Positions 1 through 55,098 of a stretch of DNA of 64,000 nucleotides are shown one piece after another. A program made the translations under genes and the position numbers. How positions within the stretch are numbered: position 1 is the stretch's first letter; each line of letters opens with the position of its first letter. The notes beneath the pieces were generated by a model, which was not told the origin of the DNA, made no database searches, and saw only the letters and a list, made by a program, of their open reading frames with translations. The stretch comes from Desulforegula conservatrix Mb1Pa (GTDB lineage: Bacteria; Desulfobacterota; Desulfobacteria; Desulfobacterales; Desulforegulaceae): NCBI RefSeq assembly GCF_000426225.1, contig NZ_AUEY01000016.1, forward strand, positions 1-64,000, written 5' to 3'.

Positions 1-65
1 TCATCAATCAGGCTTATTGGCACAAGCCTGTCCTTGTGGTCTTTTCTGTAGTCTTCCATGTTCAT
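1..65 (-). CDS. Mu-like phage early protein, DUF3164-like (partial, C-terminus off window)
   Basis: An ATG at 65 preceded by GGAGGGCAATAT opens a reading frame that runs off the left edge. The visible residues include YRKDHKDRLVPISLID, which resembles the conserved N-terminus of the DUF3164 family found in Mu-like phages. The gene follows the other small early genes in the same direction. Only about 21 residues are visible, so the family assignment is tentative; function unknown. Confidence 0.5.
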   Translation of the reverse strand, partial: MNMEDYRKDHKDRLVPISLID

Positions 66-145
66 ATATTGCCCTCCTCAATGTTTTGGCTGCTCATCAG
101 ATTCCAGGAGCCACCCTGAAATGACCGCCCGAAGGCGGTTTCGCT

Positions 146-415
146 TTATTTGCTGGTCAGTTTTTCCCCGCAGAAAGGGCAGAAGTAGACAAGCATCTTT
201 TCCTTGAATATTTTCATCTTTGTTTTCCCATTCTTGAGGGTAAACTGAGCGCTGGCCTCAATGGGCATAAAAGGATGTTCATTGAGAGAGTTGCTCTCTC
301 TATGCATTGTAAATGTGTAGCCTTTAAGCACCACGGCATGATCATTGGCTTTAGGGGCCTTTTTCTTGAAGTTATCGATAAGCTGTTCTTCCATCTTTTG
401 TTTGCAATCACACAT
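146..415 (-). CDS. Hypothetical phage protein with CxC and CxxC motifs
   Basis: An 89-residue protein starting at an ATG with a strong ribosome site (AAGGAGG, 5 bases upstream). It begins MCDCK and ends with CPFCGEKL, so two cysteine pairs could bind a zinc ion, as in small phage zinc-ribbon proteins. It belongs to the leftward early-gene string of the Mu-like prophage. No specific function can be assigned. The spacer just upstream (433-460) holds a palindrome that recurs in the host at 17921-17948. Confidence 0.65.
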   Translation of the reverse strand: MCDCKQKMEEQLIDNFKKKAPKANDHAVVLKGYTFTMHRESNSLNEHPFMPIEASAQFTLKNGKTKMKIFKEKMLVYFCPFCGEKLTSK

Positions 416-432
416 ATGTGCCTCCTTGATTT

Positions 433-460
433 GGTGCGCAGGCCTTCCGGCCTGAGCACC
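433..460. repeat. Palindromic repeat shared with host locus
   Basis: Arms GGTGCGCAGGCC and GGCCTGAGCACC around a 4-base loop, followed by CTACATTT. A related palindrome with paired changes (CAAGCC/GGCTTG) and a similar tail stands at 17921-17948 near hcp. It lies between two prophage genes and could act as an mRNA hairpin. Confidence 0.55.
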
Positions 461-466
461 CTACAT

Positions 467-682
467 TTACCCCTGATATTCCAGCCCCAGATCCAGCATC
501 CTAAGTTTGGTGTTCCTGATGCCGTTCATTGCCCTTGCCACCACTGCCTTTTTAAAATTCTCATCATCCGACCGGGTTAAAACCTGCAAATCCAGCACAA
601 CCGCGTTCAGATCCGCATGGATCGCGTTTATCTTTTTCTGCCTGGACAGTCTTGCGTATATTTTTTTAATGAACTTCTTCAT
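467..682 (-). CDS. Small basic hypothetical phage protein
   Basis: A 71-residue protein beginning MKKFIKKIYARLSRQKK. The ATG at 682 is chosen because GGAAAGGAG lies just upstream; a TTG 18 bases earlier overlaps that ribosome site and is unlikely. It is rich in Lys and Arg at the N-terminus and helical in character. It overlaps the preceding gene by 17 bases, as expected for a packed phage early operon. No family recognised. Confidence 0.6.
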   Translation of the reverse strand: MKKFIKKIYARLSRQKKINAIHADLNAVVLDLQVLTRSDDENFKKAVVARAMNGIRNTKLRMLDLGLEYQG

Positions 683-896
683 AATTTCTCCTTTCCTCAA
701 TCCGGCTTTTTAATGATTCCAAAGACTTGTCATGCGCCTCGATCAACCTGACCAAACCATACTTCACACCCTGAACCATCACCGCAGCCTCGCTTTTCTT
801 CCGTGCTTCCGCCGGAAGGTTCGCCATCTGCTCGTTTACATAGTTCCCGATCCCATCTATATCTTTCAGCATTGCGAGAAGCTCTTCACGCGGCAT
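666..896 (-). CDS. Hypothetical phage early protein
   Basis: A 76-residue protein starting MPREELLAML at an ATG with GGGAGG upstream; the reading frame could extend 7 codons further but the ribosome site favours this start. The sequence is predicted to be mostly helical and contains a charged C-terminus (KSRIEERRNYEEVH). It overlaps both flanking genes by a few bases, so it is part of the same leftward transcript. Function unknown. Confidence 0.6.
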   Translation of the reverse strand: MPREELLAMLKDIDGIGNYVNEQMANLPAEARKKSEAAVMVQGVKYGLVRLIEAHDKSLESLKSRIEERRNYEEVH

Positions 897-1152
897 AATT
901 ACCTCCCTTAATATCAAGATTGCGTTTCACCACCCTTGAAGCCATCAGACCCCGACCATCATCCAGACGAATCCACACATATTCCGGCCTTTTCGGATCA
1001 AAACCCACATCCACCTGACAACCTTCGTATTCCCTGAGCCTCTGATCCGCGTAATCATTCTCATCCACCCGGATCACGCCTTTCCAGACCCTGCGCTTGA
1101 TGATTCGTATCCGAACCTTTGACCCAGGGTGCTTTCTTTTGCCTTGGTTCAT
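886..1152 (-). CDS. Small protein resembling the Mu transposase C-terminal beta-barrel
   Basis: An 88-residue protein whose middle (about residues 24-75: VWKGVIRVDENDYADQ, then VDVGFDPKRPEYVWIRLDD) follows the pattern of the small beta-barrel that ends the catalytic core of Mu-type transposases, where a strand with a Phe/Tyr-Asp-Pro motif precedes a hydrophobic strand. Here the barrel appears as a separate gene. The ATG at 1152 overlaps the stop of the upstream HTH gene (ATGA), suggesting coupled translation. The resemblance is from sequence pattern only; a role in DNA binding or transpososome assembly is inference. Confidence 0.6.
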   Translation of the reverse strand: MNQGKRKHPGSKVRIRIIKRRVWKGVIRVDENDYADQRLREYEGCQVDVGFDPKRPEYVWIRLDDGRGLMASRVVKRNLDIKGGNYAA

Positions 1153-2842: not shown

Positions 2843-5059
2843 TTATAACCCCCCAGCCATAAGCTGCTCAACGCCCTCATCCATCATCCTGCAAGCGTTG
2901 TAATCCTCGGTTGTCTGGAAATAGGAATGAAACCTCGCAAGCCTGTCTGATATCTTTTCACCCGCCTTGATCAGCGCATCCAGACGCTTCCAGAAATCCC
3001 ACTGATCAAACATGTTTTCAGGAATCTCCTCGTTCAAAATAGCCTGTTCAAGCATTGGAAGGATCGGAGCAGCCATCTCGGCCTCAAGCTTTGACCTTAA
3101 CTCCTCAAGTTCCGCATTCGGCCCAGGAGCAGGAAGCACATCATTCACCCTCACGCCTGTTTCGGCCTGGATCTCATCCACCTTTTTCAAGGCTCTTTTC
3201 ATTCTGCCGATTCCACGTTTTTCAAGGGCCTGCTCCTTCATGGATACAGGGAAGAAAGCCTTCTTGTTCGCGTTCCATTCAGGTATGGCAATAAGCCTTT
3301 CATTATGGTCATAAACCCATACCCTTGATGCATCGTGGACATCGTATTCAACGATCACAAGCATTCCGTGGTAATGTTCGAGGTTCTTGCTCTTGTCAAA
3401 ATAGATGTTGGTTCCAATGCTGACCTCGTTGTTTCTGGTCTGTTTTTCAATCCTTGGACGCTTAAGCGAAACCAGTTCTTCTTCAGGCAGAATCTCCGGC
3501 CTCCAGCCCTGGTCAAGATACTGCTGCCAGCGTTCAGCAGGTGTCATGTGACGTTTCCTGCCTGTCTTGGGGTCAACTATTTTCGGAAGAGACGAATGCT
3601 TGTGATAATAGTTGTACCAGACCTGAAACTGATCCATGAAATCAAGGAACTCCACCCATTCCATAGGGATGTCGCTCTTGCCTTTTTCCCGGACATCTTT
3701 ATCCATGGCCAGATACACAGAACGCTCGACATCATTGCTCATGCTTTTGCCACGGAATGTTTCAAGCAGCTTCGCCCAGTTGATGGCGTTTTTATTAAAG
3801 GCCTCTATCCCACCGCGTCCCTGGGGATTTCCCGGCCTTCCGGATTTGTGTGTAGTTCCGATTCGCTCAAAAAGGCCAGTGACGTCATCCGTCATTTCTA
3901 TTGCCTTGTTACCCGAACCTCCGTCAGTATAGAAAAATAAGGGAATCCCGCCGTAGGGCTTTTTCTCGTTCAGCGTGAGCGTGTGCCTTACGCAATCGCC
4001 CACTGTCTGGGCAGACTCCGCAAGACCCGCGCTCCACCCGACCTGCATCTTGGTGACGTTATCCACCGCGAAACATACTTCAGGGATAAAAGGCCGACCG
4101 TGGATAGGGTGATTAACTTTTGCCTTGACGCTGTGACCGTCCATCTGCACGATATCCATGGGCATGAAGCCGTCGTTGCTTCTGCGTACAAATGCTCTTT
4201 GCGATCTCAGTTCTTTAGGAGACTTGCGGCCTCTTTCAATGTCCAGTCTGCTGAAATTTTTCACGAATCTGCGTACCTGATCATAAGAAGGGATGTTTTC
4301 GCATCCCATGTATTCCATAAATTCGAGAGTCCAGTTTATTGAAGGCTTTGACGGCTTTCTGTAAATCGTAAGAAACTCTTTGGCCCATGCTGGAATGGCT
4401 ATATCCTTGTGCGGAGATTCCGGCACAAGGCCCATGTATCCGTATTTTGCGTAATCACCTGCCCAGCGTTTGAGGGTGCGTTCGGAAAGGCCGCGTTCAC
4501 AGGTTCCGCCGGATCTGTTGTTGGCCAATAAAACTGCATCAGCGAGATAACCCGGAAGCGTGCCTTGAGTCTGCATTACCAGTAGATCAATAATTCCCTG
4601 ACGCTGACTTTTTGGGTGATTCTGAAGAAACTTCACAAAAGTCAGACGCGCCGTCGCTGTGTCTTTCTGCCAACCCTTGAGGGCATGAACATCTGAAACT
4701 CCTTCCTTATTATATGTAGGTCGGGTTAGGGCGTCCTTTGCCCGTAACCCGACAGGAGGCTTTGCCACAACCGGCGCACGAAGCACGATAACCTCCGCTC
4801 CGGAAGGCTCGACATCAGCTTCCTCAACCACTGGAGCAGGGGCCAGGGATTCAAGAAGGCGGTCGGATTCGGCTTTGATTATGGCGTCCTTTATGTCCGT
4901 AGGCAGCTTGGAAGCCTTGTAAAGCTTCACCTTGCCGCCCTGAACAGACTGCTCTTCACAGATCCAGTTTTCCTTTTCCTTGCTGGCTCTTCTCTGAAGA
5001 GAAGAACGAGCAATCTGGGTTGCGTCTATTATTTCTTTAAGCGAATAAGCCGTTTTCAT
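2843..5059 (-). CDS. Mu A-type DDE transposase
   Basis: A 738-residue transposase of the Mu A family. The N-terminal ~65 residues (YSLKEIIDATQIARSSLQRR) form the end-binding helix-turn-helix. The integrase-like catalytic core carries Asp307 (VQMDGH), Asp379 (YTDGG) and Glu419 (GIEAFNK), a DDE triad. A beta-barrel follows (about 540-610) and a charged C-terminal tail that would contact B. It catalyses strand transfer for integration and replicative transposition. Residues 103-113 (VGLRAKDALTR), in the linker after the N-terminal domain, are encoded by a 34-bp palindrome that also occurs four times in host spacers. The start overlaps the upstream Ner-like gene (ATGA). Confidence 0.93.
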   Translation of the reverse strand: MKTAYSLKEIIDATQIARSSLQRRASKEKENWICEEQSVQGGKVKLYKASKLPTDIKDAIIKAESDRLLESLAPAPVVEEADVEPSGAEVIVLRAPVVAKPPVGLRAKDALTRPTYNKEGVSDVHALKGWQKDTATARLTFVKFLQNHPKSQRQGIIDLLVMQTQGTLPGYLADAVLLANNRSGGTCERGLSERTLKRWAGDYAKYGYMGLVPESPHKDIAIPAWAKEFLTIYRKPSKPSINWTLEFMEYMGCENIPSYDQVRRFVKNFSRLDIERGRKSPKELRSQRAFVRRSNDGFMPMDIVQMDGHSVKAKVNHPIHGRPFIPEVCFAVDNVTKMQVGWSAGLAESAQTVGDCVRHTLTLNEKKPYGGIPLFFYTDGGSGNKAIEMTDDVTGLFERIGTTHKSGRPGNPQGRGGIEAFNKNAINWAKLLETFRGKSMSNDVERSVYLAMDKDVREKGKSDIPMEWVEFLDFMDQFQVWYNYYHKHSSLPKIVDPKTGRKRHMTPAERWQQYLDQGWRPEILPEEELVSLKRPRIEKQTRNNEVSIGTNIYFDKSKNLEHYHGMLVIVEYDVHDASRVWVYDHNERLIAIPEWNANKKAFFPVSMKEQALEKRGIGRMKRALKKVDEIQAETGVRVNDVLPAPGPNAELEELRSKLEAEMAAPILPMLEQAILNEEIPENMFDQWDFWKRLDALIKAGEKISDRLARFHSYFQTTEDYNACRMMDEGVEQLMAGGL
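4720..4753 (-). repeat. 34-bp REP-type hairpin inside transposase gene
   Basis: Arms GTCGGGTTA and TAACCCGAC with an inner pair GGGC/GCCC around AAAGGAC. Host copies read GTCGGATTA/TAATCCGAC with GAGC/GCTC or GGAC/GTCC, so the changes here are compensatory. It is read in frame as residues 103-113 of the transposase. Confidence 0.8.
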
Positions 5060-9540: not shown

Positions 9541-9897
9541 AATTTATGTGGTTATGCTCAATTCTCAGTAACATTTGAAAGTTCATGGGCTTAACATTTT
9601 TAAAACTCTAAAAATATCAGTTTTTTGCCTACTAACAAAACCATAAAGTTTTTGCGGAGCTTTTTACAAAAAGCAACCCGCTCGAGGCACTCCCCTATCA
9701 ACTTCAAAACAGCCGAAAGAATACGCTTCATCTGATTTTGGTCTATTGGGTTATAAAGCCTCGCCGGAGGCACTCGGCTTAACGTCGGATTACGGACAAT
9801 GGGCGTCCTAATCCGGCCTACGCATCACCCTTTTTTGATGGCAAATTAACCATAAAAGGCACTTCTTAACTGAAAATCAGGCAGAGCCACATTAATT
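9541..9897 (+). repeat. Composite ~350-bp repeat element, copy A
   Basis: About 355 bases closely match 54741-55098 (roughly nine in ten bases by eye). The ends are imperfect inverted repeats (ATGTGG-N4-GC-N3-ATT-N-TCAGT on one side and its complement on the other). Inside are a GCGGAGC/AAAAAGC hairpin module (about 9655-9690), a CGCCGGAGGC block and the 34-bp hairpin. No open frame of note. It fills the spacer between the chemotaxis and CoA-transferase genes. Confidence 0.75.
9784..9817 (+). repeat. 34-bp REP-type hairpin
   Basis: GTCGGATTA c GGAC, AATGGGC, GTCC TAATCCGGC. The inner pair GGAC/GTCC differs from GAGC/GCTC in other copies by two compensating changes; one outer mismatch. Confidence 0.75.
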
Positions 9898-16121: not shown

Positions 16122-16156
16122 GTCCGGATTAGAGCGTCCTTTGCTCGTAATCCGAC
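16122..16156 (-). repeat. 34-bp REP-type hairpin (reverse)
   Basis: On the minus strand GTCGGATTA c GAGC, AAAGGAC, GCTC TAATCCGGAC: the same hairpin with one extra base in one arm. It lies in the spacer after the VOC gene. Confidence 0.75.
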
Positions 16157-17920: not shown

Positions 17921-17948
17921 GGTGTGCAAGCCTTGAGGCTTGAGCACC
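17921..17948. repeat. Palindromic repeat, host copy of the 433-460 element
   Basis: GGTGTGCAAGCC and GGCTTGAGCACC around TTGA, then TTACGTTTT. It stands 15 bases past the hcp stop and may serve as its terminator stem. Confidence 0.5.
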
Positions 17949-17962
17949 TTACGTTTTATGTC

Positions 17963-38523: not shown

Positions 38524-38557
38524 GTCGGATTACGAGCAAAGAACGCTCTAATCCGAC
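38524..38557 (+). repeat. 34-bp REP-type hairpin
   Basis: GTCGGATTA c GAGC, AAAGAAC, GCTC TAATCCGAC; perfect outer and inner pairs. Confidence 0.8.
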
Positions 38558-38631
38558 CTACGAATCTGATTTTAAATATATCTTTTCGATCAAAAATCAG
38601 ACTTCTGAAATCGAAAATCATGGTTTTTTTA

Positions 38632-54740: not shown

Positions 54741-55098
54741 AATTTTGTGGCTATGCTCAATTCTCAGTAATATTTGAAAAGGTCATGGCCTGAACATTTG
54801 TAAGACTCTAAAAATATCAGTATTTTTGTCTACTAACAAAACCACAAAGTTTTTGCGGAGCTTTTTCCAAAAAGCGACCCGCTCGAGGCACTTGCCCTAT
54901 CAACCTCGAAACAGCCGAAAGAATACGCTTCGTCTGACTTTGGTCTATTGGGTTATATAGCCTCGCCGGAGGCGCCCTGCTTAACGTCGGATTACGGACA
55001 AAGGTCGTCCTAATCCGACCTGCGTATCGCCCTTGTTTTGATGGCAAATTAACCTACAAGGCACTTTTTAACTGAAAATCAGGCAAGGCCACAATAAA
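54741..55098 (+). repeat. Composite ~350-bp repeat element, copy B
   Basis: Matches 9541-9897 along its length. Ends: TTGTGGC-TAT-GC-TCA-ATT-C-TCAGT at the left and the complement of TTGTGGC-CTT-GC-CTG-ATT-T-TCAGT at the right. It contains the GCGGAGC hairpin module, CGCCGGAGGC and the 34-bp hairpin. It lies just past the FmdB-like gene, whose stop (55101) it nearly touches. Confidence 0.75.
54986..55019 (+). repeat. 34-bp REP-type hairpin
   Basis: GTCGGATTA c GGAC, AAAGGTC, GTCC TAATCCGAC; both stems perfect. Confidence 0.8.

Follow-up and report, generated by a model that had tools for sequence, protein, structure and literature searches.

A GTAG-tagged REP element within a Mu-like transposase gene of Desulforegula conservatrix

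The hairpin repeat in the window and in the genome

The window, a stretch of 64,000 nucleotides from Desulforegula conservatrix Mb1Pa, carries a Mu-like transposase gene with a short hairpin repeat inside its reading frame (Table 1). Further copies of this repeat, here called REP-B, lie elsewhere in the window, together with the starts of two copies of a second repeat, REP-A, and a type II hammerhead ribozyme. A sequence-only reading had described the repeat as a 34-bp hairpin with five copies, at 4720, 9784, 16122, 38524 and 54986. All five were recovered at these coordinates, but not all are exact 34-mers, as the copy at 16122 has an extra base and that at 9784 has an altered loop and one altered end pair. 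The copy at 4720 combines the outer arm GGGTTA/TAACCC with the inner stem GGGC/GCCC, which no other of 103 surveyed copies does.

Table 1. Coordinates of the REP copies, the transposase gene and the hammerhead ribozymes (positions in the window unless a contig is named)
Feature	Position	Strand	Remarks
Type II hammerhead, Mu-like early region	84..146	-	No adjoining REP; paralogous copies have one
REP-A copy start, GTAGGGTGCTCAGGCC	449..464	-	
Mu-like transposase, 738 aa	2843..5059	-	ORF intact across REP; PF09299 C-terminal domain
GTAG tag	4716..4719	+	Directly 5' of the 4720 hairpin
REP-B copy in transposase gene	4720..4753	+	GTAG-first strand; antisense to gene
REP-B copy, extragenic	9784..9817	-	CTAC tag at 9818-9821 (+ strand)
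REP-B copy, extragenic	16122..16156	+	Extra base in outer arm; tag degraded
Second REP-A copy start, GTAAGGTGCTCAAGCC	17937..17952	-	
REP-B copy, extragenic	38524..38557	-	CTAC tag at 38558-38561 (+ strand)
REP-B copy	54986..55019	-	Tag altered to CTGC, 55020-55023 (+ strand)
Type II hammerhead, between Mu-like early genes	C174:17396-17458		
Type II hammerhead, between Mu-like early genes	C106:6071-6130		
Type II hammerhead, between Mu-like early genes	C94:5741-5800		
Type II hammerhead, between Mu-like early genes	C94:4971-5033		

Searching the 4.47-Mb genome with the 34-mer pattern (at most 3 mismatches) gave 143 matches, compared with 0 for a reversed-pattern control, so that REP-B is a family of more than 100 copies, far above chance. 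The survey below covers 103 oriented copies of at least 143, drawn from fetched stretches with those nearest to the consensus taken first. On one strand the consensus is GTAG-GTCGGRTTAGRRCG....TTTGYYCGTAAYCCGAC, which forms nine outer pairs, a bulged G, four inner pairs and a 7-base loop, and the bulged G is almost invariant among the aligned copies. The GTAG tag, which was overlooked in the sequence-only reading, stands directly 5' of the hairpin; it is exact in 76 of the 103 copies and one change away in several more. The tag positions carry 1.2-1.5 bits of information, and the value falls below 0.5 bit immediately beyond them. With coding regions called by a home-made hexamer score and ORF model, which makes the in-gene count approximate, 101 copies lie outside coding-looking ORFs and two inside, and the coding share of the window is estimated at about 76%.

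The repeat is a GTAG-tagged REP, a small mobile bacterial DNA of a well-known kind, with about 140 copies, because its tag, bulge, length, copy number and bias against genes match those elements. Published precedents are PMC3733652, PMC2817692 and PMC8266576. The GTAG-tagged REPs of Di Nocera et al. (2013, PMC3733652) likewise have a terminal GTAG outside an imperfect palindrome of 20-40 bp, a range that includes the 34-bp hairpin with its high copy number. They also form subfamilies with alternative complementary stem residues and are mainly intergenic, with some genic copies in frame, as in the mostly extragenic REP-B. Several REP families per genome, sometimes without a RAYT, are a further likeness.

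Stem pairing and the associated RAYT genes

The covariation test that had been proposed for all genome copies was run on the 103 oriented copies (57 distinct sequences), in which standard pairs make up 97% of stem-pair cells. Two-sided changes occur at three of the 13 pairs, namely 5-28 (A-T/G-C), 10-22 (A-T/G-C) and 11-21 (G-C/A-T). Among the 57 distinct sequences, 41 cells are two-sided, whereas 1000 column shuffles gave 13 such cells on average and never more than 24, although REP-B copies are kin and 41 against 24 is therefore no simple probability. The covariation inside the Desulforegula genome stems from a few subfamilies, which appear to have been amplified and afterwards left to decay freely. 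In other genomes, pair 5-28 was A-T in 87 cases and G-C in 86, with two unmatched or wobble cases, which gives independent support for covariation.

It had been claimed that pairing, not sequence, is kept. Pairing is indeed kept, but the statement is too strong, because there is little variation at the remaining ten pairs, where almost all changes are single and uncompensated; sequence is thus conserved there as well. In other genomes, the inner closing G-C beside the bulge is found in 196 of 198 copies. Conservation of both fold and bases would be expected for an element that a protein reads through both (cf. PMC8266576). In vitro, E. coli TnpA-REP depends on GTAG and on a bulge in the stem (PMC8266576), and REP-B has both. 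Group 2 TnpA-REP recognises the stem bulge, and judged by its sequence REP-B would present a suitable structure.

The search for a RAYT, also proposed earlier, found a single one above the family cut-off in the genome (C3:77948-78397, 188.6 bits, cut-off 80). It is flanked by an inverted REP-A pair, GTAGGGTGCTCAAGCC-GCAA-GGCTTGCGCACC, and no RAYT above the cut-off in the genome is flanked by REP-B. The REP-A start (at most 2 mismatches) occurs at 59 places in the genome, compared with 5 for the control. Elsewhere, inverted pairs of the REP-B type flank homologous RAYT genes, at a distance of 19 bp in Zoogloea (L167) and of 11 bp in a Methylococcaceae MAG (L198). This is the arrangement of REPtrons (Nunvar et al. 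2010, PMC2817692; PMC8266576), from which the Desulforegula genome differs in that its only RAYT adjoins REP-A. The RAYT belonging to REP-B may have disappeared from this genome, or both families may depend on the one that is present. Matches to PF01797 were rejected as RAYTs; they all belong to a single IS200/IS605 TnpA family, a multicopy transposase family located at the ends of many contigs (e.g., L031, L032). The REP-B type occurs widely; Pseudomonadota and Nitrospira are among the groups with matches. No REP-B was found in 57 relatives of the same order, where the sole match, in G008, is unpaired and was taken as chance.

The copy inside the transposase gene

The REP covers codons 103-113 of the transposase, as had been stated, and extends by one base into codon 114; the residues at its place are VGLRAKDALTRP. 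The segment had also been placed after the end-binding domain; however, Pfam detects no such domain in this protein. The predicted structure had a pLDDT of 35 and the model was set aside. The aligned sequences suggest a variable region at about residues 75-125. D307, D379 and E419, the presumed catalytic triad of a DDE transposase, are invariant in the alignment, and the transposase is therefore probably functional.

Four paralogous transposase matches with about 74-81% amino-acid identity are present in the genome, three of which (C106, C174a and C174b) cover the linker. In the alignment with relatives that had been proposed, these three match on both sides of the linker and lack the REP segment, as does a remote relative in G351 with a still shorter linker. 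The paralogs have 11 linker residues unrelated to the REP, reading like KLPSPRMPSMLAP-YNKEG, compared with 15 in the window, of which 13 are REP-derived (AKPPVGLRAKDALTRPTYNKEG). Immediately beyond REP and tag, the window and paralog genes have the DNA TATAATAAGGAAGG in common. The net difference is 12 nt, with about nine linker residues replaced by 13, so either the REP and tag took the place of these residues or the linker was already shorter when they entered it. The junction shows unrelated linker sequence and no simple insertion, so deletion or recombination may also have been involved, or the ancestral linker may have been different. No close relative of the transposase and no empty site were found in the genome contigs, viral contigs, phage records, the 57 relatives or 388 genomes of the class.

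The second in-frame copy, at C78:2520 (L098), lies in a glycosyltransferase ORF (C78:1010-2938, - strand) and is read in a frame other than that used in the transposase. One homolog of this gene, in G135, was compared for an empty site, and it aligns only loosely around the REP. Three of the six frames run through the full tagged element without a stop.

Two explanations had been offered for the copy in the phage gene, namely that a REP-like element moved in without breaking the frame, or that phage and host share the structure for a reason. The second is unsupported for this copy, as the structure is present in one of the four linker-covering transposases. The first is supported by the GTAG tag, the bulged hairpin, the more than 100 mostly intergenic copies, the presence of a RAYT in the genome, the RAYT adjoining this REP type in other genomes and the REP-less paralogs. 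It is very probable that a GTAG-tagged REP entered the variable linker of the Mu-like transposase gene after the split from the paralogs and survived in frame. REPs are non-autonomous elements that are believed to spread in the form of folded single strands of DNA on which a RAYT (TnpA-REP) acts. One copy would have reached the variable N-terminal linker once this gene and its paralogs in the genome had diverged, mobilised by a RAYT, as a gain and not a loss. Its survival would be explained by an element without stops in the frame concerned, a net change in length that leaves the frame unbroken and a tolerant linker, and the insert would be neutral.

A REP inside a phage transposase is mostly ordinary, as in-frame intragenic REPs have been published (PMC3733652). 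That work describes REP-decorated proteins from many genes and offers, as one explanation, that flexible linkers are tolerant. The main text of PMC3733652 does not contain the word "phage", whereas the copy described here lies in a phage gene. Rickettsia palindromic elements in protein genes (cited in PMC3733652) are likewise palindromes read in frame within proteins, but they belong to other sequence families, and only 2 of 103 REP-B copies are genic.

The segment may instead have arrived by recombination with another REP-bearing sequence, not by RAYT insertion, with REPs travelling together with Mu-like phages. The unclean transposase junction fits this course, and so does the distribution of the GGG/CCC subtype, which is found in 7 of 8 copies in Mu-like prophage regions compared with 5 of 95 elsewhere (Fisher p 3e-7, which overstates the real strength because copies in related prophages are non-independent) and in 21 of 23 among viral contigs. 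However, except on the same contig, no other phage gene with the same REP at the same place was found, and this route is considered unlikely.

Much less probable is that the hairpin is a selected phage regulatory element, whose mRNA fold slows ribosomes or blocks access and so limits transposase, with the likeness to host copies being secondary. The RNA fold is very stable (-21.8 kcal/mol, z -5.3), its pairing is perfect except for the family bulge, and no other of the 103 copies has G-C at all three variable pairs. Nevertheless, three of the four linker-covering transposases manage without the hairpin, which lies 300 nt into the gene in a variable linker and has the GTAG tag as in host copies. 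A chance palindrome or conserved protein motif without any mobile element, about which the five window copies by themselves leave some doubt, has a negligible probability and is refuted by the 143 copies against 0 in the control and the GTAG border, the tag and bulge being fixed and the two in-gene copies using two different frames.

REP copies and hammerhead ribozymes in Mu-like prophages

Insertion of a mobile REP into the linker is thus the preferred reading for the transposase copy, and REP copies also occur beside ribozymes of Mu-like prophages. The type II hammerheads that Rfam detected in the genome number nine, and each lies close to Mu-like early genes. In four of the nine, at two gene junctions, the REP ends 3-4 nt upstream of the ribozyme; the same two junctions occur without a REP in other prophage copies. 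Hammerheads flanking prophage genes are known (PMC3088659), and no report of a REP beside a hammerhead was found in the open-access literature. After self-cleavage of the hammerhead, a REP in this position would lie at the 3' end newly formed on the upstream phage mRNA and guard it. It is a speculative proposal, and rather improbable, that a REP subtype particular to the Mu-like phages of this host serves them as a functional RNA part, protecting the 3' end of cleaved mRNA in this way, and that such phages ferry REPs from one genome to another. Viral contigs with the REP-B type and Mu-like genes showed no hammerheads. Extended REP flanks were rejected as degenerate hammerheads, as no ribozyme core follows them and the nine Rfam hammerheads, all near Mu-like genes, are the only ones.

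Window positions 1-1000 are nearly identical to G000:C18:1-1000, so that the assembly breaks here at a prophage end made up of repeated sequence. A group II catalytic intron match (L285, 5320-5396, - strand) lies on C174 with two Mu-like transposase genes. CRISPR-DR4 repeats (L144, 5799-6006) were observed on a viral contig that also has Mu-like genes and the REP-B type.

The transposase gene of the window, with its REP and with REP-less paralogs in the same genome, is a well-supported example of a REP taken up by a phage gene, and one stem pair of the REP-B hairpin shows covariation across bacterial genomes. Phage REPs beside hammerheads offer a testable lead on how transcripts may be cut and stabilised, and on how REPs may move between hosts.
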